A stretch of 64,000 bases of DNA, from positions 3,224,001 to 3,288,000 of the forward strand of contig JAMKCF010000019.1 of the NCBI GenBank assembly GCA_023634235.1, read 5' to 3'. Within the stretch, counting starts at the first letter, position 1; each line of letters begins with the position of its first letter. The position numbers and the translations under genes were made by a program. The notes under the pieces are model-generated. The model was not told the DNA's origin and made no database searches. It saw nothing but the letters and a program-made list of their open reading frames with translations. The DNA is from Pisaster brevispinus (lineage: Eukaryota; Echinodermata; Asteroidea; Forcipulatida; Asteriidae). Below are positions 7,501-45,379 of this stretch, piece after piece.

Positions 7501-10500
7501 ATGCATAAGCATGAACATTTCGGTGTGTTGTGACCGAGTGGTTAAGAGCACGAGACTCAAGTTCATCTGGTGTGTCTGATCAGCAGAGGTGGGTTCATGT
7601 CTCTGTGTTTTGTTTTTGTTTTTTTCTTGAGCAAGATACTTTACCACCACTTTTTTGTCCTTCGGATGTGACATTAAGCCGTAGGTACCGCATACTAGGA
7701 TTAGTAATGCACGTACAAGAACCCAGAACACTTATTGTGGAATGAGGTTAACCCCTGTGTTTCTGGTTCACATAGCAAGCACTCTTGTTTACAGGTTTCC
7801 TCAAGTTTGCGAGCTACATTGATTAAGTTCACTTATGAGGCATCCTTGGTTTCATTACCAGTAGGGCCTAATCTATAGTTAATAATAATAATAAACCACC
7901 GTTTAAAGTGCAACACAAACATAATTCATGAAAGACCCCATGGCTGATGCTGACATATATTTAGAAATAATTATACATCTGAAAAATGAATTAACAATAA
8001 TATACAAAAAATTGTTGAAAATATCATTTATTAACAAATGCAACAAAACCATAACCAAAGACAAGTCCGTCCCGCCACATAGACCAGTTAAACATAACAA
8101 AACGAACCATAACATGGCTTGAGCAAACGTTTATTAAAACGGAACAGACATCCGGTTGCGCAGTTACCAATATCTGGGTTGGACATATGCAAAGATAGAA
8201 GGTAAAAGCCCAACATGGGGGGCGGGGGGGGATACATAAAAAATGTAACAGAGACAATAAACTGACGTAAGAGTACCAACTATTGCAAGCTTGTTTTGTG
8301 GATGCGTGTTTATAACGAAGTTTTATTATAATAATTATTATGTATGAGTGTACCAGACGGGGTGAGTATTGTCTTTCGTTTCCTAGGATGGCAATGGAAG
8401 TTTGGACTAATTAAATTTGTTTACGGTTTGGTTTTCTTTTACTTTTTCGAATCAAAGTGGCAAATAACTAAGTTGTAGTAAAAGCAACTTTTAAAACATT
8501 GGATTCTAGAAAATAATAGTGTTTTTAGTCATTTCAGATCTTAACATACACATTTGACATAGGTTTCTCAGATAGCGTTGGCCTAGCCCTGTGTTACTTT
8601 CACTTTCTCTTGCAACACAGGAGGAATCCTAATCTAGAGCCAGCCTCGGCCTAATTCGACTTCATAAAAAAAAAATAATAACTTGTAATTTTGTATGTAT
8701 GTAGCTAGCGTTGACCTTTGTCCCTTCAAATCCATGCGACTGGGCTGTGCTATTTCTATTTGTATTGTGTGACATTTATTGGAGGACTTAATTTGGACTA
8801 AAGATAGAGTGTCGTTTCGTGCAGTAGCACTTCAAACATAGCCTCATGTAACACTGTTAGCAACTCAAGTACTAAACTTGGACTCAAGTCAGAGAGTCGG
8901 TTCCTGCAGTAGCACTTCAAACATATCCTCATGTGGCACTGTTAGCAACTCAAGTACTAAACTTGGACTCAAGTCAGAGAGTCTGTTCCTGCAGTATCAC
9001 TTCAAACATAGCCTCATGTGGCACTGTTAGCAACTCAAGTACTAAACTTGGACTCAAGTCAGAGAGTCTGTTCCTGCAGTATCACTTCAAACATAGCCTC
9101 ATGTGGCACTGTTAGCAACTCAAGTACTAAACTTGGACTCAAGTCAGAGAGTCTGTTCCTGCAGTAGCACTTCAAACATAGCCTCATGTGGCACTGTTAG
9201 CAACTCAAGTACTAAACTTGGACTCAACTCAGAGACTCGGTTCCTGCAGCAACAAATAAACTTAGCCTCATATAGCAGGGTTAGAAACTTGACCGAGAGA
9301 CTATTGACTGAAGCCCAACTTGGTAAAAAACCCATCATTTACAGACTTGACTTAGAATTAATTTAAACTGTCATTGCTTGCCCTCAAGGATTTGAAATTT
9401 GACCTGGGACTTGCCCCTAATGACTTATTGATATTTATCGTTAAATTTATTTGTATATTTCCATTAGAGTGAGATATGAGTGCGTCTGACACTTTCACCG
9501 CGTAATCTATCATTTGTATGTATATACGACAATTTTCAGGAAATGTTTGTATTGTATTAAATTCCCTACTCTTATTGCTGCTGCCCTAGTGTGACTATCA
9601 GTGATGGGTGTTGATCCTTCAATTGTAGATATCTTGTTGGTAGAATTGTATTTATTTTGTTTCCTTGCCTGATGACAGTGAAATTGGGACTCACTCTGTT
9701 TTCCATTTCAGCTTAGAGCAAGAGAGACTGCCTGTGGGTGTTTATCTCTATTTTGTATGGAGGGAGCATGGCTTTGGACCATGCTTCGAGTATTGTTTTG
9801 TGTTTAAAAAAAAAAATCATTTTTCTATAAACTTATAATTTTGCAAGTATGTTAGGCAATGAGCTTTTGCTCTTCAAGTCTACATGGCTGGCTATATACT
9901 ATTTCTATTTGTATTGTGTGTTATTGATTGGAGGAATGAACTAAATTCAAGTGCCGGAGATCATTTCATATTTCAGACGTTATGGAGTGGATTTTGCTGT
10001 TGGTGTTTTTTGTGAATGCTCGTCCTTTTAAATTAGAGGACCGGCCTCCCTTCCCGTGCCTCTACAGTAATTTCTAGAATACTTTCGGTAAAACAAACTT
10101 CTGCTTTTTTATTTTTTGTAGTATTATTTTTTTTTTTTAATTGACTGTATCCATAAAAAGAACCTTCCATTGCCATCTCCATTACAAAATCAAAAGGCAA
10201 TGGGAGATCAGGAATAGTTGGTTATATAAAGAGAAAAAACGGCAAACGCCCTAACTCTAGGGGGGGGAGGGTAAATTAAAACTTCCGTTGCCATCCTAGA
10301 AAATCAAAAGGGGCGCGTAGGACGAAGTTGTCTTACCTTTCGCAGAGGGTCTGCGTTTGTTTTCTTTCTTCCCTGGTCCGATTGCGGAACAAAAACATGT
10401 CAAATATTTATAAAGGCCTGTTCGCCCTTTCCATTTCCATGTATGTCATTTCATTGATTAGTTATATATTGTGCAAAACGTGGGTTATTAATGTAGATAA

Positions 10501-25200: not shown

Positions 25201-27755
25201 AGGCCAACGGGTTAAAGCACAAAGAACCTTTGTGTTTTTCTTGGTTTCATTACCAGAAACAATCATAATAATGGACATTGGGTGTTTTTCTTGCAGCATC
25301 AGGACTTCCTAGAAGCAGAGCAATCCAGACTTCACATCTGCGTCAGATGGCAGGAGCAGCAACAAACCTTCTGGCAATGGATGGTAGGTTGTATCCCTCG
25401 TAGTTGGAATGATCTAATAAATTGATTTGCCGAGGGTTTTCCCAAACAGTGGCTCTTCATGGCCACTGTTGAACCAGTGCTACTACTACTACTACTATCA
25501 ATAATAATGGCTTCTTATATAGCGCTCATATCTGTCACTCAGTGACACTCAAGGCGCTTCAACATTCAGTATTTTTCTGCAAGGTATGAGGGGCTACGTT
25601 TGAAGTATGAGACCTACTCCTTTACATAGCACCATGTAACGGTTTACAAGGTGCTGTGGCGCAACATGCAGCCAATCAAACCAGGAACACCGGGGCGAAC
25701 CCCTTCTCTTTTCGATAAGTGCACTGGGTTCTTTTATGTGCGTTACACGACACACGGGACTAATGGCTTTACGTCCCATCCGAAGGACGAAGCAATCATG
25801 GTTAAGTGTCTTGCTTAAGGAAACAAGTGTCGCGACCGGGACTCGAACCCACACTCTGCTGATCAGAAAAACAAGAGCTTGAGTCCAGTGCTCTTATCCG
25901 CTCGACCACGACACTGTATGGGCGCAAAGCATAGACATTCTTTTCCAGAAAACAAACTTGATGGTTGCTACACCAGAATGCTACGCCAGGTGCTTGGTGT
26001 CAGGAGGGAAGTCCATAACCATTTTAGATCTTTATCTCGGGTTCCCTATAAAGCTTGGTGCAAAGTTCTGGGCAAAGTCACCGGAGTGTGGGTTTGGACC
26101 CCGGTTGTAACCCATGCACCCTTGAGCAAGACACTTTACTATAATTAGTAAATGGGTACCTGTGAGGGTAGAGATTGTTGATGTAAATGATAAGCGACCT
26201 GTGTGCCACTTTGGTTACCGGTGCTGAATACTGCCAAGGAGTTGAGATAAGTTTCGGAATGCTAAGGGCCTGATGAACATGGGTATACCAAAAGACACTT
26301 TGAGGGTCCTACTTGGCTCTTGAAAATGTACACAATAAACACATTATTATTACATCTACTTTTTACTTTTTGATCACAACACTGGAAATATTTCCGTGCC
26401 TGTAATTTTCGACCGAAACTGCGGTCTTCATCAGCAGGATGACACAGATGTAGCATCCGTGACCTTGCGTAAACGTGATCCCAACACTGCGCCATTGTAC
26501 CGCCCTCGTCCCGGTTCAGGAAAGGTTTTTAGGCTCTGATGTAAGCTGCCTCCTTCACCCTCCTTTCAAAGTATCGGGCGTCGTCTCTGTCCAGTGTTGT
26601 GATCAAAAGTTAAACAGTAAATTGTTTCAAACTTCCAACACAGATGAATATTCATGCTATTTCGTCTTATACAATATCCCATGATGTTTGCCATGAAATA
26701 CTTAAACCTGCAGGAGAGTGTGCTAGACGCAAAGCTTCAAGACTCCTCAGTGGACGGAGAGGAAGAAGAAGCCGAAGCTACCACCAGACCTAACTCCTCA
26801 ACAAGGTCAGGTGACCTCATGGAGATCCTTATTGATCTGGAAGGATGCACGCAGCAACTGGAACATCTCGTTGACGATGATGGCTCTGTTGAAGATGTAA
26901 GCTTTGTCATTTTTTTTTTTTTTTTATTTCATAAGAGGGATGCTTTTCAGCAATGATCTACCTAGGCAAACGTATTTGGAGAGAATTTTGATTGGTCTTC
27001 AAGTTTTTTAACTAGCATTTGGCCAGCGGAGAACTATTAACCCATTGCAACTTTAAAAGTCGGTACGGTAGGAACATTCTAATCGGATCGGATAAGAATT
27101 CCAGCAAGTGCACATGGATCGTTCCATCGGACCACTGGAATGTTCCATTGAAACGTTCTAAATACTGATGCTCACTAAATACAAACACTCGTTGCCGCCT
27201 GTGGCTTGGCCCTAGAACTTTATGCCCATGTCTGGAAGTTGTATGGAAGTAAGAGTCTCAGATGGCAATGCGTGTTAAACAAATTATCCCTTGAACAAGA
27301 TGGCGCATATTATCATGAAGGTGCTTATGCGGTCACCAGCTGAAGTTGATGTTAAAACAAATTGATAACGAGTTGAGGGAGATTTTTATCATAAATGTGC
27401 CTTATTGGGGTTTTTTTTCAAACAGGCTAGATACACCTCTAAGCAGTCCTTTATTGCAGCAGATGTCAAATCCAGACTCGCTCCACCTCCCACGGCACCA
27501 TCATTAAGACGGCCCTCTAATCAGACAACGAGGTTCCATCTTGCAAGTAAACAGTCTAAGGCGCCCTCTGCAGCTCAGAATGGACCAGTCAATAGAATCC
27601 ACATCCAGGACGAGATCACGAGACTCTCGGCGGTCGTTGAGACACTGAAGGCGGAGTTGGAGGACCTGAGGGGTGGTCATCGCTGTCGGATTGAGGACTT
27701 GACCTCCGTACTCCCTGACGCTGTGTGTATTCCTCCCATGGGGTCGTCAAGATGA
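22151..27755 (+). CDS. TEDC1: Tubulin epsilon and delta complex protein 1 (6 exons)
   Basis: Exons 22151-22288, 22867-23349, 24388-24486, 25297-25383, 26714-26896 and 27426-27755 join to 1320 nt, 439 residues, with every intron in phase 0. I recognise TEDC1 (formerly C14orf80) from several blocks that align with the human protein: TPEIFRQAKF near residue 35, SREVLLACAWLLAK, LGWMVGRCRM with the following QQQEFCNLT, and FWQWM at 265-269. Known role: with TEDC2 and delta/epsilon tubulin it is required for stable triplet microtubules of centrioles and basal bodies. The C-terminal part has an acidic stretch (about 283-292), a basic Pro/Ser-rich linker and a likely short coiled coil (about 390-422). 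ATG ATG at 22151 opens the frame. The human protein is slightly shorter and the C-terminal third is the least conserved part. Confidence 0.88.
22488..22841 (+). mobile_element. tRNA-derived SINE copy in TEDC1 intron 1
   Basis: The head is GACCGAGCAGTTAAGAACAC; the body has AAAAGAACCCAGAACACTTA and CTGGTTCACATAGCAAGCAC; the tail is an ATA repeat. It is the copy most similar to 7508-7897. Confidence 0.82.
22867..23349 (+). CDS. TEDC1: TEDC1 exon 2 (main conserved domain)
   Basis: The acceptor is atcttttag and the donor cag/gtgaaa. Residues 47-207 hold most of the conserved helical domain, including WSLLYSL, SREVLLACAWLLAK and GWMVGRCRMAMRRLYLQQQE. GC content is clearly higher than in the flanking introns, as expected for an exon. 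Confidence 0.9.
23431..23715. mobile_element. MITE-like element in TEDC1 intron 2
   Basis: The ends TGGGCCAATTTCATAGCGC and GCTTTATGAAATTGGGCCC are inverted repeats; inner GCTTAA and TAAGCA blocks also pair. About 285 bp. A possible relative lies at 62608-62863. Confidence 0.7.
23931..24180 (+). mobile_element. Degraded SINE copy in TEDC1 intron 2
   Basis: AGACTCAAGTTCTGGTGTTGA, here as CTCAAGTTCTGGTG, is followed by ACACTTGACCATAATTGCTT and GAGAAGGGGTTTGCC, all shared with other family copies. The head is eroded. Confidence 0.7.
24388..24486 (+). CDS. TEDC1: TEDC1 exon 3
   Basis: The acceptor is gtttatcag and the donor acg/gtaagt. It encodes 33 residues, IHVATQGLSVT to HSDQLKT. Human TEDC1 also has an Ile-His pair just after its QQEQC block, which supports this join. 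Confidence 0.82.
24700..25085 (+). repeat. Imperfect tandem repeat of about 115 bp, about 3-4 copies
   Basis: GGTCAGACAGTA-type motifs recur near 24740, 24853 and 24969, with a decayed copy near 25078. Each unit also has TATTGCAGGCTGGC and CATTCAAAACC. It lies in TEDC1 intron 3. Confidence 0.75.
25297..25383 (+). CDS. TEDC1: TEDC1 exon 4
   Basis: The acceptor is tttcttgcag and the donor atg/gtaggt. It encodes 29 residues ending QQTFWQWM; the FWQWM signature is shared with the vertebrate protein. Confidence 0.86.
25588..25916 (-). mobile_element. tRNA-derived SINE, best-preserved head, TEDC1 intron 4
   Basis: Read on the minus strand, the head GTGGTCGAGCGGATAAGAGC leads to a B box GGGTTCGAGTCCCGG, and GTGTCGT pairs with GCGACAC like an acceptor stem. 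The body has AAAAGAACCCAGTGCACTTA. The head resembles a type II (Leu/Ser) tRNA, but it continues into a SINE body. Confidence 0.82.
26082..26352 (+). mobile_element. SINE-like repeat, second 3' type
   Basis: CTTGAGCAAGACACTTTACT, AATGGGTACCTGTGAGG and GAGTTGAGATAAGTTTCGGA are followed by an ATT-rich tail. It aligns with 28288-28567. Confidence 0.65.
26362..26615. mobile_element. Inverted-repeat element next to TEDC1 exon 5
   Basis: TTTTTGATCACAACACTGGA near 26369 and TCCAGTGTTGTGATCAAAAG ending near 26609 are inverted repeats. The interior contains GACCGAAACTGCGGTC, itself a short palindrome. Confidence 0.72.
26714..26896 (+). CDS. TEDC1: TEDC1 exon 5 (acidic segment)
   Basis: The acceptor is aacctgcag, with a weak pyrimidine tract, and the donor gat/gtaagc. 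It encodes 61 residues with an acidic run GEEEEAE and the block GDLMEILIDLEGCTQQLEHL, a probable amphipathic helix. It is included mainly because it has both splice sites and is in phase 0 with its neighbours. Confidence 0.75.
27426..27755 (+). CDS. TEDC1: TEDC1 exon 6 and stop
   Basis: The acceptor is tttcaaacag. It encodes 109 residues: a Ser/Pro/Lys-rich linker, then the likely coiled coil DEITRLSAVVETLKAELEDL, ending GSSR with TGA at 27753-27755. I could not find an obvious AATAAA within the next 400 bases. Confidence 0.8.
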   Translation, partial: ARYTSKQSFIAADVKSRLAPPPTAPSLRRPSNQTTRFHLASKQSKAPSAAQNGPVNRIHIQDEITRLSAVVETLKAELEDLRGGHRCRIEDLTSVLPDAVCIPPMGSSR

Positions 27756-28938: not shown

Positions 28939-29340
28939 CCAACACCCAAACTGTTGGACTCTGATTATGGTGGTATGCCTGATCCCATGTAAAGCATAAT
29001 CAGTTTACTAGTGCAGTCTTCAGTCCAACACCATTCAGTAACTCAACACCCAAACTGTTGGACTCTGATTATGGTGGTATGCCTGATCCCATGTAAAGCA
29101 TAATCAGTTTACTAGTGCAGTCTTCAGTCCAACACCATTCAGTAACTCAACGCCCAAACTGTTGGACTCTGATTATGGTGGTATGCCTGATCCCATGTAA
29201 AGCATAATCAGTTTACTAGTGCAGTCCTCAGTCCAACACCATTCAGTAACTCAACACCCAAACTGTTAGACTCTGATTATGGTGGTATGCCTGATCCTAT
29301 GTGAACCATAATCAGTTTACTAGTGCAGTCCTAGGTCCAG
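28939..29340 (+). repeat. 104 bp foldback satellite, 4 copies
   Basis: AACACCC (AACGCCC in unit 3) recurs at 28941, 29045, 29149 and 29253, exactly 104 bp apart. Within a unit TGTTGGACT and TGATTATG are matched downstream by CATAATCA and AGTCCAACA, so each unit can fold into a nested hairpin. Units 1-3 are almost identical; unit 4 is diverged and its outer arm is lost. Confidence 0.92.
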
Positions 29341-30894: not shown

Positions 30895-31023
30895 ATGTGG
30901 ACTAAAATCGGGACTTTTTGCGTGATTTTGTTACTCTATGTAGGCAGTGTTCGTTGCAGTGAAGGGAGCAACACCCCAGACCAGAGCGGGGTCCTGCAGT
31001 TTCTCCGCAACATTTTGTCGAAG
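30895..31023 (+). CDS. Multi-CUB gene exon 1: signal peptide
   Basis: Encodes 43 residues. MWTKIG, then a hydrophobic core (TFCVILLLYVG) and a likely cleavage after VRCS make a classical signal peptide. The donor is aag/gtgagt, phase 0. The start is chosen because it is the first Met and gives the signal peptide. Confidence 0.83.
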
Positions 31024-34000
31024 GTGAGTTTTAAAATGGTCCACAGCGGACGTAATTCACGTAAAAAGAACAGGTGTAATTATTTTGCATGGTATAATTT
31101 TGAGAATTTTTTTAATGTCCGTACGTGAATAAGCCAACTTTATACGTCGTTGTCCCCCTCAATAATTGCATTTTCAACATTACGGCAATGAAACCAGCCA
31201 ACCTTGCACCCGACTTTGGTTAAGAGAATGGTTCGCCGTGTATGTTCTTTTGTCGCCTTTGGTTCCTTTCTTGTTTTTTCGTTCCTCGTTCCGTACAGAG
31301 AACCTGTGGTTCCTTTCTGTAAAGTCAAAGAACGAGACGGGGGTTGTTTTAGTTTAAAATTTATTTCCTCACTTGCAATGCAGGGCAAGGAATTGCGTGA
31401 ATTTCATCCAGACGCATTTCATTGAATTGCAGCAGGTTTTTTTTTTTTTTTTTTTTTACAACTATGGGTGCATGTGGGTTGGGGAGTGGGGACCACGTGG
31501 GGTGGGGTACGGAAGCTTGAAAGGGACATCGAGAGGGAATTTAAAAAAGTGATTTCTTTGCCATTTTCCAGGACTCCCAGCAGTCACAAACCTTCAGGGA
31601 ACTTGCTCTCGGTCGATCTCGCAGGGATGCAGAAAAAGGTAAATAAAACAAATGTTATTGAGTCATAAAGTACAGCAAAAGTGTAAAGGGATGACAAATC
31701 ATAGTTTTGGGGGGGGGGGTTTTATTATTAAAATTTTTTTTTTTTTTTAAGTATATGACATTCTTTAAAAGGAACACAGAGTGAGAGAATAGACTGTGCA
31801 TGTCTCGCATGTATCGGAACGAGAAAACACGTCAAATAAAGAACTTTTTTCTGAAATCAAACCTTTGTTTTAAATTATATCTATGAAAAACTGTTAATAA
31901 CAATTAATCTCATTACAATTCTTATAAAATGACTAATAGGTTTTTTAAAGAAACACACAAATATTTTGTTAATTTTTATTGAAACAAAATTAAAATCCTG
32001 GGACAAGGATACTTACTTTATCTTAAATTTCTTTCAAACCCCTTATGTAAATCCACACCTGAATAATGTGCAACCACAAACAAATTATTGAGTGACGCAG
32101 TTTATAGACGACTTTGATGCCTCAACGACCATAGACTGCAATGAAAAGGTTTAGCGTCTGGCAATTTCAACGCCGTCTGGTGAGTGTCATCGCGCGACCA
32201 AAACAAGCGTTTTCATAAGTTTGGTGATCGGAGGTGGGCATAATTCTTTATTTTTTTGCAAGTAACCGGAAGCCGAGTTAAAATTTAATTCTTGGGGTTT
32301 CTTCCTTATATTGTTTTTACTTTCATATTTTTTTCAACTAGTATTACAATCCCAACAGCATTTATAATGGTTATGGTGATAAACTATGTTAAACTAAAAC
32401 AATTGATGAAACAAAGTCTTGCCCACGTAAAACTCCTATATGGTTGGGACCACAATGGTCCGGGAAGTTCAAATACTAGCGAAACTTGCACAGTCTATTC
32501 AAGCTTGTTAGTTGATAAATATTGATATTGATAAATACATTTTGGCATCATCAATAATTGCTTCAAAATGCTTCTAACTTGTGGTATGTGCTAAAGTCTC
32601 ATGAATATCATCTATAATTTTTTTCTTTTAAGAATGTGGTGGAACAGTCCCAGGTGGGATGGCATCTCTCGAGTCTCCTGGCTTCCCCAAAGGGTATGCT
32701 CAAGACCTCCTCTGTGTATGGAAAATAGAAGCACCAGCTTCAAAACAGGTAGGCCATAAGAAACATCTCAGTAATTTTATTTCACTTACATGACGGTCCG
32801 GTGAATGAAAGCGAGGATACTTATGTATTTTAGAACTGGCTTTTATTGAGATTAGTAGTTTTGCCAATAATAGGTCACTAAGGTCGAGTCTGAGTAAATC
32901 TTGAGTCACATGGATCAAGTCTGAATCCAAGTCTTCATTGTGTGCTTGGAATCTCGGGAATTCTTTGGCGGTTTTTAGGGGGTACTTCTGTACAAGAGGA
33001 AGATAGTGTGTTAAAGTATGGGAACATGGGGGTGGGGGATACCCACTGCCCCATATCAGGCATGGTATACATACAAGTGTTGAGTTACATAGAATCCAAG
33101 TCTTGAGTGACATGGGTCAAGTGTGAGTCTAAGACTCAAGTCACATTGGCTGAGTGGGAGTCAAAGTTTTGAGTCACATTGGTTGAGTGAGAGTCAAAGT
33201 TTCGAGTCACACTGGTTGAGTGTGAGTCAAAGTCTTGAGTCACAATGGTCGAGTGTGAGTCCAAGTCTTGAGTCACATTGGTTGAGTGTAAATCTAATTC
33301 TCGAGTCACAGGGATTGAATGTGAGTCAAAGTCTCGAGTCACATTGGTTGAGTGTGAGTCCAAGCCTTGAGTCACATTGGTTGAATGTAAGTCTAATTCT
33401 CGAGTCACAGGGATTGAATGTGAGTCAAAGTCTTGAGTCGCATTGGTCAAGTGTGAGTCCAAGTCTCAAGTCACATTGGTCAAGTGTGAGTCCAAGTCTC
33501 AAGTCACATTGGTCAAGTGTGAGTCCAAGTCCAAGTTCCATGGTTCCAATCTGAGGCCAAGTTACATTGTTTATTAAATCATTAAAAAATATTTAAACTG
33601 TACAAGACTAATAACATTGATCAGTCGATCTATATGCATGATGGTCAACACATTTACTTGCAACCAGATAAATATTTAGAAATGGAAAAAAAAACGCTCC
33701 TTGTTCCAGAAGACTCTCTGCCAGCTTGCACACTGTTTCAAAATCTCTTGTTTGGTTGACAAACATTTCCCAGATTCTCTAAGAAGTGCTAAGAACACTT
33801 AATACATATATACCTGATTATGGTTAAATTGTATTCAAACATTTCTTATTATTTGGTTTTACCCATACACCAATGTGTGTAAAGCACTGTACACTCAGTA
33901 CTTTCACAGGACTTGGGGAAAGACCCAATAATATTCTTTATCCCCGACACAAATTTAGCAGCTATCAAACATTTCTTCTTTTGTCTTCCATCACAGTGGC

Positions 34001-37000
34001 TGCTTCGCTTCATGTTTTTTGATGTCAAAGGGGGCTCTAGAGGCATCTGCAGCCCGGGGGAAGATTACGTCATGATGCGCGATGGCTCAAGAACGGGACA
34101 GCGCCTCGGGATATTCTGCAACGCTTTACTGTCAAAATCTTCCTTGCCATCAGCTATACTTTCTGTCACCAATGAGGTTTGGATCATCTTCCACACAAAC
34201 AGCAAAGACGAGGGAAAGGGTTTCCTTATCAGCTTCCAGTCTATAAACTCAGTGAAATTCTCGGATTATATCGCTGATCAGGTAACCTTTGAACCAAGTA
34301 CAGAGGTCGGGTCATCCTCAGCTGGAAAATCGTCGAAGGAAACTAAGACCACCGAAGCACCTATAACTTTGTTACGTCGATCATCTGTTAATCCAGCGAC
34401 CACCTTTCCTTTTACCCAAGAGGGCGATCAACTAACAGCCAAAGCAGTAGACACTTTGTCTTTTGAATCAATTGCAATTGGCAATCCTCATTTGGGCCCA
34501 GTGCATTTTGGAGATAGCAAAGGCTCTTTTGTAGACGTTACACTTCCACCTCCATCGGATACACCTTTGTCTGTGACTGACCTCAGCATGCAACCCGATT
34601 ATCGTATGCTCCCTGAAGGCGCAACTGCTACCAGAACTCAACTGCAAAGCACATCTCAATTAAAAACGATGTCATCAACAGATGGGGCAACTTTGCATCA
34701 GGTACTTAAAACTGAGCAGCCTGTAACACAATCAAAAGAGCAATTTGCAGTCGCAGCCAAAAGTTTTGTTGTAACGAATAAACAACAAGAGGTTACTGAA
34801 ACTGAACTGCTACCCGTCGCCCAAACTGAACCAAAGATTCTTACTCAAACTGAGCAAATATCTCTACTTCAATCTGAACAAGAGTCTGTAAGTCCACCTG
34901 ACTGGCAACCAGCAACTGAAGTTAAGCAACAACTGAGAACTGAACTGCAAATAGAAACACAAGCTGTTGAAGATACTCAAGTTGAACAGAAAACCACTGC
35001 CCAAGCTGAACAGCAGCCTTCAACAAAGGCCAAGCAGCTTCTTACTCCTAAACTTCAATTCATAATTACAAAACCTAAAACTGATGAACCAGGATCCGTT
35101 GCTACATTTGCAGGTCAATTTGTTAGTTCAACTGAAGAGCTTCATGCATCTGAAGCTTACTATCAACCGACGACAAAATCTCAAGAACAGTTTGTTATTC
35201 AAACTAAACAACGTTCATTACCTGAATTTGATTTCCCAAAACCTGTCACTGAAACTAAACTTCTCCCTACTTCCATACCATTACCTATTACTGTGCCAGG
35301 ACCATACTCTGTGACTCCAATTAGTGACGTTTCTGAAGCTAAACAGCAGTCTGTCTCTAAACCAGATCTCAGAACTAAGTCTTGGCAACAGTTTGTTACT
35401 CAAATCAAAGAGCTGCCAGTCACTGAAGTTAAACAGAAACCTTTAACTAAACCTGATGAGCTACAGCCTGCAACAAAATCACTAACTACGGAACAAGAAA
35501 CTGTAACTCAATCGCAGCAACTGCCCTTCACCGCCAGTCTTTTACCAACAAGTGAGCCTGGTTCACAATTTGTGACTCAAACGGATGAACATACCGATTT
35601 AAACGGGTTACAGCAGCTGACAAGCTTTGGGCAACAAGTTATAAGTCAAACAGGAAAGCTGCAAACTGATGCTAAACAGCAACCAGTTACTAAATCAAAC
35701 GGACTCCAGCTCTTAACAAGGCCTCGGAAACAGTATAGCTTTTTAACTATACAACCATCAGTGACTGAAATAGATAATCCAGAACCTGGAATTCAAACTG
35801 GAAAACAAGTTGGAACTGAGTTCTACAGAACTAAAACTTTGACTAAGTATGGACAACACTATGTTATTCCAACTATAGTACCATCAGTGGCTATGGCCAA
35901 AACAGATGTTCAGCAGCCTCAAACTCAAACTGAACAATTTCTCACTGAGATTTATGAATTGAAACCTGTAACCAGGAGAAGGCAGCAGTCTGATTCTCTG
36001 ACTGGACCACCTGATCCTCAAACTGACAAACCTCAATATATAACTGAACTGGAGAAAGCTGGGATCAGCAGTGAACAATACATTGATACTCAGACTGGCG
36101 TTGAAGATATTGGAACTGAAGATCCAACTCAAATGTTCACTCATCAAGAGCAAGTATTAACTGCAGAATATCAACCCAAAAGCACAACAGAAATCGCAGT
36201 TAAAACATTTTCCGATGAGCCAAAAGAAACCATCTCCCAGCAGTATCTCTCAACTCAAACCGAGTCAACAACTTCCACTGAACAGCACCCTAATGTTAAA
36301 ACACAATGGCAAGCCCTCACCAAAGAATGGCGCAAGCCTTCCACAACACATGCTCCAGAAGCTGATATCCAACAACTCACAGTTCCTCCATCACTGCCTC
36401 CAACTCCATTCCCTCCAACTCCACCACCACCCTACCCAGATATTACACCAGAACCGAGTTTGCCCTCAGAGGATTTTGACGACCCTCTAACTCAGTCTCT
36501 GTCTCAAGTATTTAACATTTTGAGCGATGTCAACTTAAATGATGGAAGGAGCATAATACAGGCCTGCCACAATCTGAACATGACAATGAATGAAACACTG
36601 GAAGCCTTCAAGTCTCTGTCACGACTGGCACAGGGTTTAGAGTACACTAAATCTTTACTCCCAGCAAGCACTCCAGTTGAGATGCTCCGTGTCAACCTCT
36701 CAGGAGATGCAGCTCTGGATAAACTGCAGCTGTTCCCATTTCTGCTCATACAGACTTTGGAAGTCAGCGTTTCAGATATTATATCCAAGGCCAGTGAGTT
36801 CTTAAATAACACCATTCAGAATGCTTCCCACATCCAGTCAGACGTTCCGGAAGCCTTGTGCATTCGAGGTTACTCCCAGCAGCTTTTGAATGCTCTACAA
36901 AGAGACACTAGTATCAACGGTAGCCTTGACTTAGTTGAAGACATGTTGAAAGATCTGTTTGGATTTAGTCTCATGGAAAAACTAGGGCCTGGATTAGGTA

Positions 37001-40000
37001 TTGATGATGACCAACCTACACTAGCTCCAGATGGAGAGCAGTGGGACTTCAATCAGGTGATCACCAACCCCTCTGGTGAACTTCAATCCCCGAACTATCC
37101 CGATGCATACCCAATGGGTGTTCGCTACCGCTGGAACATCACAGTTAGACCACAGGAAAGAATCTCTCTCAATTTCACCCATTTCGATCTAGATTCAGAA
37201 CTGATACATGATCAGTGTGACAGCAGGTATGCACACGTAACAGTTGATGACGGATCTGGTCTTGAAACTGGCAGGAAACATGTGTTTTGCGGTCAAGAAG
37301 TACCCAATGCCATAGTTTCATCATCAAACACGCTAATTGTGACGTTTAAAAGTAGTTATGGATACGGTACAGGATTCCATGCAGACTTTGCTATGCATAA
37401 GCTGGGTGATGTTCGTGATAATCGGTATTCAACAACAGCTGTGCCTGATCGAGTGTGTGGAGGTGTATTGACTAACCAGAGAGGTAGTATACAATCACCA
37501 AACTACCCTGGAGACTTTGAAACCAGTGTTGACTGCCTGTGGATTGTAACCGTAGAATCTGGACTAACCATCTCCCTCAATTTTACCGATTTCAACTTGG
37601 ATTCTATTCCAACTGACAACTGGTGCAGTGAAAGCTATGCTCATTTGAAAGTAATTGATGGAATTAATGGGAGTAGTCATGTGTACTGCGGGAAAGAAGT
37701 CCCACCGCTCTTTATCTCGTCAACAAATACATTAACCATCTCCTTTGTTAGTGTGTTTGGTTTCGGTGGAAGGTTCCACTCTTTCTACAAAACTCTCCAG
37801 CAAGATCCAAAGTTCCTCTTAACATCAAGTCCAGATCATCCGTCAACAGAACCACCGCACCACTGTGGAGGAAACCTGGAGGACCCGACAGGTGTCATTC
37901 AGTCACCAAACTACCCTGGAGACTTTGAAACCAGTGTTGACTGCCTGTGGATTGTAACCGTAGAATCTGGACTAACCATCTCCCTCAATTTTACCGATTT
38001 CAACTTGGATTCTATTCCAACTGACAACTGGTGCAGTGAAAGCTACGCTCATTTGAAAGTAATTGATGGAATTAATGGGAGTAGTCATGTGTACTGCGGG
38101 CAAGAAGTCCCCCCGCTTTTTATCTCGTCAACAAATACATTAACCATCTCCTTTGCTAGTATGTTTGGTTATGGTGGAAGGTTCCATGCTTTCTACAAAA
38201 CTCTCCAGCAAGATTCAAAGTCCCTCTTAACAGCAAGTCCAGATCATCCATCAACAGAGCCACCGCTCCACTGTGGAGGAAACCTGGAGGACCGGACAGG
38301 TGTCATTCAGTCACCAAACTACCCTAGAGACTTTGAAACCAGTGTTGACTGCCTATGGATTGTAACCGTAGAATCTGGACTAACCATCTCCCTCAATTTT
38401 ACCGATTTCAACTTGGATTCTTTTCCAACTGACAACTGGTGCAGTGAAAGCTATGCTCATTTGAAAGTAATTGATGGAATTAATGGGAGTAGTCATGTGT
38501 ACTGCGGGCAAGAGGTCCCTCCGCTCTTTTTCTCGTCAACAAATACATTAAACATCTCCTTTGCTAGTATGTTTGGTTATGGTGGAAGGTTCCATGCTTT
38601 CTACAAAACTCTCCAGCAAGATTCAAAGTCTCTCTTAACAGCAAGTCCAGATCATCCATCAACAGAACCACTGCACCACTGTGGAGGAAACCTGGAGGAC
38701 CCAACAGGTGTCATCCAGTCACCAAACTACCCTGGAGACTTTGAAACCAGTGTTGACTGCCTGTGGATTGTTACTGTAGAATCTGGACTTACCATCTCCC
38801 TCAATTTTACCGATTTCAACTTGGATTCTATTTCAATTGACAACTGGTGCAGTGAAAGCTATGCTCATTTGAAAGTAATTGATGGAATCCATGGAAGTAG
38901 TCATGTGTACTGCGGGCAAGAGGTCCCCCCGCTCTTTATCTCGTCAACAAATACATTAACCATCTCCTTTGCTAGTATGTTTGGTTATGGTGGAAGGTTC
39001 CATGCTTTCTACAAAACTCTCCAGCAAGATCCAAAGTTCCTCTTAACAGCAAGTCCAGATCATCCATCAACAGAACCACCACACCACTGTGGAGGAAACC
39101 TAGAGGACCCGACAGGTGTCATTCAATCACCAAACTACCCTAGAGATTCCGAAACTGGTGTTGATTGCAAGTGGAATGTAACTGTAGACCCTGGACTAAC
39201 CATCACCCTCAATTTCACCCATTTCAACTTGGACTCTTTTCCAATCGACAACTGGTGCAGTGAAGGCTATGCTCATGTGAAAGTAATTGATGGAATCCAT
39301 GGAAGTAGTCATGTGTACTGCGGGCAAGAAGTCCCCCTGCTCTTCATCTCATCAACCAACACACTAACAGTCACCTTTGTTAGTATGTTTGGTTACAGTG
39401 GAGGGTTCCACGCAGTTTACACAGCTCTTGAGCAAGAGTCAAAAGTGCTCTTAACTTCACCTCCAGATGTCAAGCAGACCGAATCAGTGTGTGGAGGAAA
39501 TTTCAAGAACCCTAGAGGCGTCATTCAGTTGCCAGACTACTCAGGGATCTTTGAGATGGGTTTGAGCTGCCAGTGGAACATAATGGTGGGTATCAATGCA
39601 GTCATCTCCCTCACTTTCACTGAGTTCAACTTGGATTCTCTCCCCATTGAAAACAAGTGTAATGAGGGTTATGCCCATGTTAAGGTAATAGATGGCAACT
39701 TGGGTAAGAGCAACATCTACTGTGGGCAAGAGCTACCTCTGCCATTCATCTCCACCACAAATACACTTCTTGTTGTTTTTGAAAGTTTATATGGATACAG
39801 CGGTCGATTTCGGGCAGTTTACCGTGCTCTCCAACTGTATGTAAGTGGGTCCGGAGACCCAGAACTGGGTTTGACATCTGTGCAGCCTTCCTCTATGTCA
39901 GTCACAGAACCTTTGTGTGGGGGTTCGTTCAACCAGCCAAGTGGTATCATTCGGTTACCGGAGCAGACCGGCGATAACTGCAGGTGGAATATAACAGTGG

Positions 40001-43000
40001 ATTCTGGTTGGATTGTTCTCCTGACTTTCACATTGTTTGATATTGATTCCTACGCGGTGGACGGACAGTGTGACGAGAGGTATGCTCATGTCAAAGTGAT
40101 TGATCGGGAGTCGGCACACATTTTCTGTGGCCAAAGCATCCCGCCTGAAGTCACTTCCAGATCGAGAACCCTGATCGTTGACTATGTTGGGGTGTATGGT
40201 TATGGGGAAGGTTTCGAGGCAATTTACGTAGTTCGAGATGCTGATTTTGAATGGCTCGATGCCAGACAAGTTACAGCCGCTGTTTCTTCACCATCCAAGT
40301 CGACACAGGCACTTCTACTAACTGATAAGTCCCCATATCAGTGTGGTGGAGACCTCAACCTGCCATATGGGACAATACAATCTCCTGCCTACTCAGGTGA
40401 ACAAGCCACTGGTGTGACTTGTAGATGGACCATCACAGTGGGAGACAAGTGGCTGATTCAGCTTGCCTTCACATACTTTAATCTAGATTCAGCTTCCATA
40501 AACGGCCAGTGTGACCAAAGGTACGACTATCTCAAGATAATAGATGTCAACACGAAAGACGGCAGCTCTGAGTTTGTATACTGTGGTCAGGATTTCCCAA
40601 ACATTTACGTGTCATCATCTAACTATCTTACTATAATTTTCTACACCAGTTATGGATTAGGTGGTGGTTTCACTGCCGAATACACAGTGGTGGAACCAGA
40701 CAGGATACTAACCAATACGTTATCACCTTCCACCTCCAAATTGCCATCGGCTGTTCTACCTTATGAGTGTGGTGGAGATATCTCAGCACCCACCGGGGAA
40801 ATCAAATCTCCAAACTTCCGCGGCGACTATACCACTGGTGTCAACTGCGTATGGAAATTTACGTTGGAAGCTAACTCAAAGGTTGCACTGAGTTTCACGG
40901 TTTTCGATGTAGATTCTATGCCTTTTGAAAATGAATGTGACACGAGATACGCTCATGTACTTGTAATTGATGGCAGCAGCGAAGAGACAAGTCCACAACG
41001 TATTTACTGCGGTCAAGATCTTCCAGACGACTTTGTGTCAACCAGTAATTCATTAATCATTGCTTTCATCAGTCGAAATGGCTACGGTGACAGATTCCAA
41101 GCACGTTATTCTTCACTAAAATTAGACGATGATTACTTCAGACTCTTTCCATCTACTTCAATTCCATCTGAAAAAACAGTCTCTCAATCACAGCCGACAT
41201 CTAAAACAGACAAACAGATAGTGGACTGTGGTGGTGTTTTGGACACTCCCGATGGTGTAATACAGTCTCCCTATTTATCCACAATGGAAAAAGCCCTAAG
41301 CGTAAACTGCCAATGGTACATAGAGCTGCAGGAGGCTGGCACCATCACCGTCGTCTTCAAATACTTTGACTTGGATTCTGTTTTATTTGAGAACGGATGT
41401 CAGGAGACGTACGCTAACTTAAAGTTCATCAACACAAGAACCGGTGCATCCCAGGTGTACTGTGGTCAGGATGTACCCCCAAGCTTTGTAGCATCAACTA
41501 ATAAACTGTTGATCATCTTCAGTGGCTTGTATGGCTTCAGCAGAGGCTTCAGTGTAGAGTATCACTCTACGAAACCCCTTCCGAGTGTTGACCCAACAAC
41601 TGTTGCTGTTTTACCAACATCCGGTTCAGCATTGGGCAGGCAGCTTCCACCCTGCGGCGGTATACTAACAGGAGACTACGCTGAAATTTCATCCCCAGGG
41701 TATCCTAATTCGTACCCCATTGATACCAGCTGCTCGTGGAATATCTTTGTCGATAGCACACACTTCATCGCCCTCAAGTTTCTTGACTTTGATGTTGACA
41801 ATCCCATGGTGCAGCCTGATTGCTCTATTCACTACTCATATGTCAGAGTCAGCTACTCTGGGGAAGGAGGCATTGAGGAAACCCATCTCCTCTGTGGTAG
41901 TGAACAGCCTGAAATATTGAAAATGAGAACGCATTCGGTGGTGGTGTATTTCGAAAGTAACCTTGGTATGGGGCGTGGTTTTAAAGCTTCATACCAAGCG
42001 TACAGTTCATCCAGCAGTGATGTCAGGACAACCGCAATACCAGCTGCTACTGAAAGTGTCGTATCCACCGTTGTCTCAACGGCACAATCTGGACAGATAC
42101 TCTCTCCAAACTACCCAGTGCAGTTTCCACACAATATAGACAAGCTGTGGATCATCAGACCAGCTCGTCAGACATTCATCACTCTCATTTTTGAAGATAT
42201 TGACTTTGATGCAACAACCGGTGAGAACGGACAATGCAATACATTGTACACCCATGTAGCCCTCACTACGTACAACATCGACAGTGGAAACTCTGAGCTA
42301 CTCTTCTGCTCAAATGAAAGGAAGGCCGCTGTGTATTCATATGGTGAGCTTAAGCTGGCGTTCCATAGCACCTATGGTGATGGTCGTGGATTCAAAGCAA
42401 CATACTCGTCTGACTTTCGTACTGGAGATATTGGTTTTGTTACCAAAGAACCAGTTACACCTACACCTAGACACAGCCAACCTATGACCTCCAAAGAATC
42501 TGTCATGAAGACCCCAAATCCCAGAGAGAAGTTTTCAGTCGGATGCCTGTATACCCTGACGCAAGAAAGAGGTCACTTCTCATCGCCCAACTACCCCGGT
42601 ATGTATCCACAAGAAGTGGTGTGTCAGTGGAGCGTGCTTGCTCCTACTGGACGGCTTGTACGTCTGGACTTCTCCCAGTTCCTGCTGGACTCTGGCGATT
42701 TCCCTGCGTGCGATACAAAATACTCCCACCTTGTCGTCACCACTTCTGACTCCTACGGTGGGAGAGACTACACTTACTGTGGTCAACAGCTACCGCCCAG
42801 GATAATCTCTCCAACTAACAGGTTGGTGGTGACTTTCAGAAGCATGTTCGGTATAGACTTTGGATTTTTTGCGGCTTATCAATTCATCAGTGCTGAGACA
42901 TATCAAGGATCTTTCGGCCCAGTTTTCACTGATGGAGACAAAAGTACAAGTGCTACAGGTCAAGGGTCGGATGCTGGGAAAACATCATCACCCATGAGGT

Positions 43001-45379
43001 CTCAGGAAGTGGACAGTGCTACTCAGGTTACTGAAGGCAGTCTCATTAGCGATGCTCCCTGTGAAAGAGTTATCAGTAATCCTGAAGGAGTCATCCGTTC
43101 CCCTTACTTCCCTCAGGGGATGCCTCAAGGAGAAGAGTGTACCTGGACTATCACTGTACCAGGAGAGCAAGGAATTCATCTGTCTTTCCTGGACTTTTCT
43201 CTGGACGACCACGAGGTTGATACATCCACTTGTTTTGAAGACTCGGCTTCGGTCAGTGTTTTAATGGACGGCAGTCACTATGAGTTTTGCGGGAACATGC
43301 CACCATCTCCACTCATCTCAACTGGGAACTCTGTCGTCATCGAGCTCAAGACAATGTCAGGAAATGGTCAAGGCTTCAGGATGCACTTCATAGATGCCAG
43401 CCTTAGGTCTGCTGGCTCAGTAACATCCCATATCACAGGAGACATCACAGAATCACGTACGCCAGTAGTAGACTTCCGATTTCTGGGAGAGGGCGGCATG
43501 ACCGTCCCGCCCGATGGTGACAAAAGAGATTTCACTCAACCTGGTAAGGATCGTGTCAAGGTGCCAGTTCAGCAACCAGAAGACATAACTGCTTCAACTC
43601 CGGTGTCAAATATGGAGACTGACGCCGGGATGACAGCTACAGTCAACCTGATGATGACCGCCAGCAAGGACAACATAGCAACCCTGCCAGGGTATACCTC
43701 ACAGGCTAAGGTGACTGGCATTGGAAGCACAGCTGATTCAGGAGGTAAATTTTCATCTCTCATTTGGGAGCCTAGTCATTGCCTTGGTGTCCCTTTAAAT
43801 CTTCTGCATTAGAACTTCGAAGAGACGCCACTCACCCCCAAAACAGGCATTGCCCTTCCAAGAATGAAGTATCAGGCTTGGTAACATAATTGTACAGAAT
43901 ATCCATGAAGGTATTTGTGCATTCGTAGCTGTTGCCATGAATTGATCTATAAGTCAAAAAATATAATGTTTTGCAATGATTTTTTTTTCCTTCAAATTAT
44001 ACAGTCAGCGGCGTAACTAAGGTAATTTTTTAGGGGGTACAAAGGGGGGGGGGGCATCATTTTTTTCTAGGGGGGCACTGCTGGCGAATTAATAATAGAT
44101 TCCATTTGCACCTTTTTAAAAACTAGATCTTGATCTACGTAATGGCGAGTTCCAAATGAGGTGTCACCCAGAGGGGTACTGATATCAATGGGGGGGGGGG
44201 GGACATGCCTCCCCACCCCTGTGCCCCCCTTAGTTTTTTTAACATTTTCAGCAAGTTTCAGGACCTAATATGATATAGTTTGTAGTGATGATCAACGTAT
44301 CGGTACATTTGCCATTTTGTGGTTTGCCTACTTCACACAAACTGGCTCAACTGATTACCTGAAGCCTATAGACTCGAGTCTTTTTCAGAAATAAAAGTTT
44401 GTGTCATAAAAGATGCTTTTGAATGATGAAACAGGTGGTTTTTCGGTAAAATTGCACACAAACGTATGCCAGTTTTTGAGCCGAAGGTAGCAAAACTTTG
44501 GGCGTGCAGGAGGTGTGCATGTAAGTGACTCAATGACTTTCCAGTAGGATAGGCTGCAATATGAAAATATGAAAATTATAACTATAACAATTGGGGTCCT
44601 ATCATTTCTCTTGTAATGTAGCACTTCATCATACTATTGTACAATCAGCCATTTGCGAATGAGATTTGAATAATATCTGGTGCAATGACTTATTTAGCCA
44701 CAAGTTACTGCTTAAATTTGAATTCCTCAGACTATTGAGATGGTTGCTGTCAAATGGTTCGGGGCAAGCTTTGGTAAAGCATTCTCCAGACGGGCAAAGT
44801 CTGGGACACTTGTTCCGTTCACGCTTATTGAAAACTGTGTTTGGGTGTTCCCAGTATCATATGTAGCTAAGCCAAAGGCTGGCCTCGAATCATGTGGCAT
44901 AGCAACTGTCTCCATTGGCCGAGGAATTCAAATGTAAGCGCTAAGTTGTGACTAAGCAAGTCATTGTGCCAGACATTATTCAAGTCTAATTCGCAAATAG
45001 ATGATTAACCCACACATTGTGGGGATCGAACAGGTTCGGCACTTTGTTGAGCACATACATGATGAAGATTTTAAGCTTTCTGTGTCTTGCCCAAACAGAT
45101 GTACTGACGAGCCACCAGCTGCGCATCACAGCGATTGTCTGTGGCAGTGTGTCCTTCATTCTGTTCATCCTTCTCATACTCCTGACCACCATCTGCATTT
45201 ACAAGAGACGCAGGCGTCACTCCAGCAAGTCCGTCAAGATGGGACAATCGGAGAAGAGCTACTGGCAGAACTACAAGTCCTGGGCCCGGGATTATTCCGG
45301 CGGTCCTAACAAACCAGAGGTGGCTGACGAGGAGGGTATGGAGGCGGTGCCAATTCCAGAACAGGAGAGGTTGGTTTGA
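30895..45379 (+). CDS. Giant multi-CUB single-pass transmembrane protein (5 exons)
   Basis: Exons 30895-31023, 31572-31638, 32633-32748, 33997-43744 and 45099-45379 join in phase to 10341 nt, about 3446 residues. Order: signal peptide (1 to about 22), CUB1 (67-187, split by an intron), a cysteine-free Gln/Thr/Lys-rich stalk (about 188-925) ending in a Pro-rich run, an unrecognised helical region (about 925-1105), CUB2-CUB16 (about 1118-3242), a Ser/Thr-rich stem, a transmembrane helix (about 3363-3388), an RRRR stop-transfer and a 58-residue tail. CUB domains are extracellular beta-sandwich binding modules. It is not cubilin: there are no EGF repeats and it has a transmembrane helix. I cannot name the family. 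A role as a cell-surface receptor, adhesion molecule or matrix protein is inference from the architecture. Confidence 0.88.
31572..31638 (+). CDS. Multi-CUB gene exon 2
   Basis: A short exon of 67 nt. The acceptor is ccattttccag and the donor aaag/gtaaat. It encodes DSQQSQTFRELALGRSRRDA and leaves phase 1. The RSRR motif could be a furin-type cleavage site (inference). The next exon opens with the two bases needed to complete the split Glu codon. Confidence 0.72.
32633..32748 (+). CDS. Multi-CUB gene exon 3: first half of CUB1
   Basis: The acceptor is ttcttttaag and the donor cag/gtaggc. It encodes CGGTVPGGMASLESPGFPKG and then the C-W strand (LLCVWKIEAP), the usual N-terminal half of a CUB domain. 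The second half begins exon 4. Confidence 0.87.
33075..33545 (+). repeat. 33 bp GAGTC-rich minisatellite, about 14 copies
   Basis: A unit such as GAGTCACATTGGTTGAGTGT followed by GAGTCCAAGTCTT repeats every 33 bp. Because 33 is a multiple of three, long frames stay open on both strands (ESHWLS-type peptides), but the array lies inside an intron. Similar GAGTC-rich text occurs near 32.9, 59.9 and 60.9 kb. Confidence 0.88.
33997..43744 (+). CDS. Multi-CUB gene exon 4: 9.75 kb exon with stalk and 15 CUB domains
   Basis: The acceptor is ttccatcacag and the donor ggag/gtaaat. It has 9748 nt of uninterrupted frame (residues 105-3353). It completes CUB1 to about 34245, then the stalk (about 34250-36455), the helical region (about 36456-36995) and fifteen CUB domains. 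The first Cys codons, or the start where Cys is missing, lie near 37037 (CUB2, no first Cys), 37456, 37864, 38272, 38680, 39088, 39490, 39916, 40342, 40768, 41227, 41653, 42070 (CUB14, no first Cys), 42544 and 43060. The frame runs on 84 bases upstream and 68 downstream, but the splice sites show those parts are intron. A Ser/Thr-rich stem follows CUB16. Confidence 0.92.
34250..36455 (+). other. Gln/Thr/Lys-rich stalk-coding region of the multi-CUB protein
   Basis: About 740 residues without a single cysteine. They are rich in Q, T, K, E and P, with loosely repeated patterns such as QTEQ, TKSQEQFV, AKQQ and VTEVKQ, and end in a Pro-rich stretch (PSLPPTPFPPTPPPPYP). It looks disordered or extended, with many Thr for possible O-glycosylation. 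It is coding sequence continuous with the CUB domains. Confidence 0.85.
37456..39489 (+). repeat. In-frame 408 bp tandem array encoding CUB3-CUB7
   Basis: Successive CUB first-cysteine codons sit exactly 408 bp apart (37456, 37864, 38272, 38680, 39088) and then 402 bp to 39490. Units 1-4 are nearly identical in DNA over most of their length, including synonymous positions; unit 5 is similar but more diverged. Each unit encodes one CUB plus a linker (SPDHPSTEP) of 136 residues in all. Confidence 0.95.
43745..45098 (+). other. Multi-CUB intron 4
   Basis: Bounded by ggag/gtaaat and cccaaacag. Near 44005 it contains CAGCGGCGTAACTAAGG followed by poly(G), a pattern like the end of a DNA transposon; another G run lies near 44190. 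No exon is seen. Confidence 0.65.
45099..45379 (+). CDS. Multi-CUB gene exon 5: transmembrane helix and tail
   Basis: The acceptor is cttgcccaaacag. Its first two bases complete the Asp codon split after 43744. It encodes VLTSHQLR, a helix of about 26 hydrophobic residues (ITAIVCGSVSFILFILLILL and on), KRRRRH, and a polar tail with KSYWQNYKSWARDY and an acidic end before TGA at 45377-45379. The matching phase is strong evidence that this exon belongs to the gene. Confidence 0.88.

Follow-up and report, generated by a model that had tools for sequence, protein, structure and literature searches.

Among proteins with many CUB domains, cubilin combines EGF domains with 27 abutting CUBs, most of which carry calcium ligands in Acanthaster P0043; it has no transmembrane segment of its own and is anchored by amnionless, and it holds ligand lysines by a calcium-type site, as PCPE-1 does. 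Other CUB-containing families have other partner domains: astacin in tolloid, sushi in CSMD, and FA58C/MAM domains in neuropilin. In echinoderms, the sea-urchin egg bindin receptor EBR1 is, in the available part of one account (PMC8403831), an egg protein of high molecular weight in which repeated CUBs occur together with TSP1 and HYR domains and for which no transmembrane segment is predicted. Here, we analyze a 64,000-nucleotide stretch of Pisaster brevispinus DNA (the window) and describe a gene whose product resembles cubilin (human 3kq4; Acanthaster P0043; A. amurensis P0146) in its long run of CUBs and its similar total size, yet differs in having its own transmembrane segment in exon 5, one plus 15 CUBs, and a stalk with no counterpart in cubilin. 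We lean, with modest confidence, toward an overall reading in which this is a single-pass sea-star membrane protein, its CUB array grown within one exon, that acts as a multivalent adhesion or recognition receptor.

The gene model comprises five exons on the forward strand, all with GT-AG borders, and encodes a protein of exactly 3446 amino acids; compared by eye, its exon joins agree with the A. rubens protein P0003. Exon 1 (30895-31023; 43 codons, phase 0) provides the start codon and a signal-like hydrophobic N-terminus resembling that of the A. rubens protein. Exon 2 (31572-31638; 67 nt) encodes the segment DSQQSQTFRELALGRSRRDAEK, placed by the model together with the A. rubens comparison, and exon 3 (32633-32748) encodes the first part of CUB1, as identified by the model, a CUB profile and Pfam. 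Exon 4 (33997-43744; 9748 nt) encodes the rest of CUB1, the stalk, a helical region, CUB2-CUB16 and the start of the juxtamembrane linker, and exon 5 (45099-45379) encodes the transmembrane segment, the cytoplasmic tail and a TGA stop. The giant exon is bordered by cacag upstream and gtaaat downstream and lies in a single uninterrupted stop-to-stop frame of 3309 codons (33883-43812); the probability of so long an open frame arising by chance is ~10^-81, for independent bases with the composition of the ORF. A first-pass annotation of this DNA had proposed a 3446-residue protein from five exons, an intron splitting CUB1, and one 9.75 kb exon at 33997-43744 carrying the stalk and 15 CUBs. The all-GT-AG model arrives at the same length and divides CUB1 between exons 3 and 4, and the ORF, the GT-AG borders and the CUB counts bear out the exon itself. 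The intron directly before the giant exon contains a 33-bp tandem repeat (33098-33531; 13.2 copies) that is open in one frame per strand and looks like a minisatellite.

In the full model, CUB1 (residues 67-190) and 15 further CUBs at residues 1124-3240 are detected by a profile made from the CUBs of the array itself. Pfam concurs: CUB (PF00431) matches exon 4 at E 8.7e-256 in 16 stretches, as the exon begins inside CUB1, and a scan of residues 1-200 returns CUB1 only (residues 67-184). In exon 4, the second part of CUB1 (33997-34254, from the CUB profile) is followed by a 725-residue stalk (34312-36486) that is rich in threonine (14.5%), glutamine (11.7%) and proline (10.2%) and contains no cysteine and no N-glycosylation motif. 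Next comes a helical region of ~185 residues (36487-37041), which is nearly all helix in a structure predicted from two sequences at low confidence (mean pLDDT 62.8). A. rubens has this region at 73% identity, and it was not found in the Patiria (P0002) or Acanthaster (P0005) proteins; a 1021-residue query yielded no relatives of it at E<=10 among 1130 word-sharing candidates of 0.55-1.75 times the query's length, and Foldseek, run with the weak structure model, matched nothing in the PDB at E<=0.001. The array of 15 CUBs (CUB2-CUB16; 37054-43404) has Ser/Thr/Pro-rich linkers with a median length of 22 residues. By hydropathy, apart from the signal-like N-terminus, the protein has one transmembrane segment, RITAIVCGSVSFILFILLILLTTICIY (45122-45202), which is followed by a 58-residue cytoplasmic tail (45203-45376) that bears a near-invariant EK.YWQNYKSWA..Y.GGP block and ends in QERLV. 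The order previously read from the DNA (signal peptide, CUB, stalk, helical region, 15 CUBs, transmembrane segment, short tail) is thus recovered in the model, with an N-terminus that is signal-like.

This domain order had been judged to fit no cubilin, tolloid, CSMD or neuropilin protein, and the Pfam scans agree: across residues 1-200 and exons 4 and 5, no family other than CUB-type passes the Pfam cut-off, and astacin, sushi and FA58C/MAM domains are accordingly absent from these parts at that cut-off. EBR1 is alike in being a large echinoderm protein with repeated CUBs; it differs, in the part of its description available, in its TSP1 and HYR domains and its lack of a transmembrane segment, whereas the sea-star protein has such a segment and Pfam finds neither TSP1 nor HYR in it. 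We reject membership in the EBR1 family, given that only CUB-type families pass the Pfam cut-off and a transmembrane segment is present.

The comparison with cubilin is more intricate, since the relatives of the protein carry that name. Pfam scans of residues 1-200 and of exons 4 and 5 return no EGF domain, and those of the relatives P0003, P0005 and P0002 return none either; in the positive control, the genuine cubilin P0043 of Acanthaster, Pfam finds EGF domains and 27 CUBs. Linkers between CUBs have medians of 22, 22, 29 and 21 residues in the four family members and consist of 38-41% Ser+Thr+Pro; the median gap is 1 residue in each of four echinoderm cubilins (P0043, P0145, P0146, P0153). 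A complete calcium triad occurs in 0/71 array CUBs of four species (0/15 here) versus 19/27 in P0043, a count that allows for inserts, one of them loosely; a stricter count that ignores inserts and leaves out 14 Patiria CUBs gives 0/57 versus 8/27. By position, array CUBs have Asp at the first site in 71/71, at the second in 16/71 (12 of these in Patiria) and at the third in 1/71, and P0043, with inserts allowed, has Glu/Asp in 21/27, Asp in 25/27 and Asp in 25/27. The triad is likewise absent from the three CUB1s tested, and CUB1 falls among cubilin CUBs, near CUB12 of P0043, with weak support (91/78). According to the available part of a study of PCPE-1 (PMC6372009), such acidic ligands serve in calcium and lysine binding, and PCPE-1 holds ligand lysines by a site of this kind.

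We also compared array and cubilin CUBs in two trees of ~120 columns, in which many forks are unsettled and no root was inferred. The more careful tree contains 87 CUBs (57 array, 27 cubilin and three CUB1s, with 14 Patiria CUBs left out) and places all 57 array CUBs on one side of a single branch with support of 100/98. A quick tree of 98 rows, drawn from cubilin and cubilin-like CUBs of echinoderms, a nemertean, Hydra and human together with PCPE-1 and neuropilin-1, likewise separates 27/27 array CUBs used from 69 other CUBs and two CUB1s (96), with support that deserves less trust than that of the careful tree. The absence of EGF domains, the protein's own transmembrane segment, the long linkers, the missing triad and the separate branch of array CUBs lead us to reject membership in cubilin. 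On these sequence comparisons the protein appears to be a separate sea-star protein for which "cubilin-like" is the wrong name, in which case a distinct family of sea-star membrane proteins sits in public databases under the name of the vitamin-B12 receptor. Hydra vulgaris P0007, named "cubilin isoform X2", may be a further array protein that received the cubilin name by default: its CUBs, too, are mostly split by linkers of ~11-34 residues (median gap 20). It differs in having 5121 residues with long non-CUB parts, and the ten of its 28 CUBs that were used lie outside the array branch. P0007 also contains a near-identical CUB pair.

The nearest relatives, all automatically named "cubilin-like", are P0003 and P0004 of A. 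rubens, P0002 of Patiria miniata and P0005 of Acanthaster planci, and identity to P0003 is 68% across 87% of the part searched. By these relatives the window is sea-star DNA, probably from a species close to Asterias. P0003, P0005 and P0002 share the outer plan seen here, with CUB1, a stalk, a CUB array, a transmembrane segment and a conserved tail, although the Patiria model starts inside CUB1 and CUB1 is cut short in the Acanthaster model. The first-pass annotation had called the protein unnamed; it does have named relatives in three sea stars with the same outer plan, and their name appears to be wrong. Within that plan, the array holds 15 CUBs here, 14 in A. rubens, 12 in Acanthaster and 30 in Patiria. 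CUB1 and CUB2 lie 933 residues apart in the present protein and 815 apart in A. rubens; in Acanthaster the distance is 434 residues and in Patiria it is 233, so that stalk length is not fixed. A tail block of ~19 residues is almost invariant across the four proteins, with YWQNYKSWA and QERLV common to all; since identity to the Acanthaster and Patiria proteins is hardly higher across the whole tail (66-67%) than in CUB2 (61-64%), only this block stands out. The C-terminal 685 residues of P0003, used as a query, matched 145 proteins, of which the best 120 were considered. Among these listed matches, coverage of 100% is reached only by the query itself, P0004, P0002 and P0005; no non-asteroid relative is fully covered, and the echinoderm proteins P0145, P0043, P0146, P0149 and P0153, covered over 40-69%, bear EGF domains.

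Two predicted relatives bear on the continuity of the giant exon. Against X1, the A. rubens isoform X2 (P0004) is missing 267 residues, equal to two CUB units, and the point of joining falls within an identical, and hence ambiguous, stretch of 25 residues; this gap may reflect a copy-number difference, splicing, or mis-mapping or prediction error, and repeats can yield the pattern by mis-mapping or copy-number difference. Compared by eye with Patiria, an Acanthaster X3 model skips the last part of CUB1 together with the beginning of the stalk; alternative splicing, a difference in copy number or an erroneous prediction may account for this. The uninterrupted frame and the collinearity of the A. 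rubens protein suggest an exon without internal splicing; because predicted relatives skip stretches inside the matching region, such splicing is possible. Our search of the literature on sea-star and gamete CUB proteins, with most subscription journals outside its scope, found no published description of this protein. A 2013 paper by Hart reportedly concerns a sea-star bindin receptor. In a paper on the A. rubens coelomocyte surface (PMC13409769), the main text, as far as it was available, contains no "cubilin"; its CUB mentions comprise a protein abbreviated CUB in a secretory set and LDL-receptor-related proteins.

The array contains a recent tandem part, CUB3-CUB7 (37456-39438, forward strand), with a 408-bp period. 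Five copies of the unit start at 37475, 37883, 38291, 38699 and 39107, each matching the first over 300 bp at 85% identity or more, and TRF reports 4.8 copies of a 408-bp unit at 37495-39455. CUB3-6 are 91-97% identical, with dS of 0.08-0.24 and dN/dS of 0.13-0.47, and are probably fairly recent copies under constraint; CUB7 is older, with dS of about 0.5. In the trees, six array CUBs (c02, c09, c12, c13, c14 and c16) have one partner in each of four species, and c15 has a partner only in A. rubens. Other CUBs expanded separately: c03-c06 here (100/96), and c03-c04 and c08-c09 in A. rubens (100/85 each). In Patiria, with its 30 array CUBs, a different unit expanded, namely a repeated two-CUB unit. 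These patterns indicate that the array grew by in-frame tandem duplication inside one exon, mostly in mid-array and separately in each lineage, in line with the growth within an exon suggested earlier, and they present a clear instance in which an extracellular disulphide domain has multiplied within a single exon. Domain repeats commonly expand in their middle, according to the part of PMC1553488 that was available. For other domains, especially zinc fingers and LRRs, a repeat survey reports large exons carrying ten or more repeats, and the term CUB is absent from its main text, as available; a single-exon array is thus unusual for CUB and for an extracellular domain, yet of a known form and not unprecedented.

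Two other accounts of the exon can be weighed against growth by in-frame duplication. Intron loss usually acts most strongly toward the 3' end of a gene when it proceeds through reverse transcripts. Such loss, for example by retro-recombination as suggested earlier, would have the exon arise from a multi-exon CUB gene and expand locally only afterwards. This reading could accommodate the intron in CUB1 and the two further 5' introns, with none from stalk to array, and the several CUBs at both ends of the array that have one partner in each of four species and must therefore be old. The intron that remains 3' of the array, before the transmembrane segment, speaks against it, as do the single branch of array CUBs and the recent growth within the exon. 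Because array CUBs form their own branch, loss from a multi-exon cubilin-type gene is not needed, and an earlier loss from some other CUB gene is possible; as an account of the exon, we consider intron loss unlikely, though the most serious of the alternatives. False duplication during assembly would instead make the near-identical units an artefact, and tandem near-copies are indeed hard to assemble, and A. rubens has two predicted lengths. Yet CUB3-6 units differ at 3-9% of bases without loss of frame and CUB7 by about 20%, no stop interrupts the frame, and local expansions recur in A. rubens and Patiria. Given this divergence, the intact frame and the expansions in relatives, we reject an assembly artefact as highly improbable.

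In the protein, CUB1 and the 15-CUB array lie at opposite ends of the stalk and helical region, and the array adjoins the membrane, a layout that most likely fits a multivalent adhesion or recognition receptor best. We propose that copies would be made by unequal crossing-over or gene conversion, that array CUBs may work without the usual calcium site, and that the array could form a long multivalent adhesion or recognition arm at the cell surface, presenting CUB1 far out. The short tail, through its conserved block, might couple the protein to the cytoskeleton or to trafficking. Two rival functions were considered. A role in gamete recognition on eggs or sperm, by analogy with EBR1 and with CUB number and sequence changing fast between species, would fit the lineage-specific expansions and the resemblance to a high-molecular-weight egg protein with repeated CUBs. 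The sea-star protein's lack of TSP1 and HYR domains and its transmembrane segment, said in the available part of PMC8403831 to be absent from EBR1, weigh against such a role, as does the dN/dS of 0.13-0.47 among copies, which by this crude measure gives no sign of positive selection. The absence of "cubilin" from the available main text of a crown-of-thorns paper adds weak evidence in the same direction, and we find a gamete role doubtful. A divergent cubilin or cubilin-type endocytic receptor that takes up ligands through its CUB array could draw on the automatic name, on human cubilin as the best match among solved structures, and on the room for an uptake signal in the short tail. It is set against the absence of EGF domains from the protein and from P0003, P0005 and P0002 when P0043 shows both EGFs and 27 CUBs, the separate branching of array CUBs, linkers of 22 residues rather than 1, and the missing triad, which in PCPE-1 forms the type of site that holds ligand lysines (PMC6372009, in its available part); we regard this receptor reading as improbable. 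The adhesion or recognition receptor that we prefer admits one further, frankly speculative extension. With no introns between units, recombination in register would leave both the reading frame and the splice sites intact, so copy number should be easy to change. The intron-free array of a recognition receptor might therefore act as a copy-number "dial", with recombination shifting reach and valency between species, and perhaps between individuals, in self/non-self or gamete recognition. If copy number does vary between individuals, the protein would become a testable candidate for surface recognition in echinoderms.

Elsewhere in the window, ARAGORN reports a tRNA-Leu(caa) at 25827-25912 on the reverse strand, and Rfam gives no matches in the window at gathering scores, this locus included; it is possibly a tRNA-like sequence or pseudogene. 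A forward-strand ORF at 22867-23367 matches TEDC1 (tubulin epsilon and delta complex protein 1; E 1.6e-18) and marks a neighbouring gene. The window also contains two tandem arrays, one with an 85 bp unit in 5.9 copies (8786-9289) and one with a 104 bp unit in 3.8 copies at 97% matches (28940-29330).
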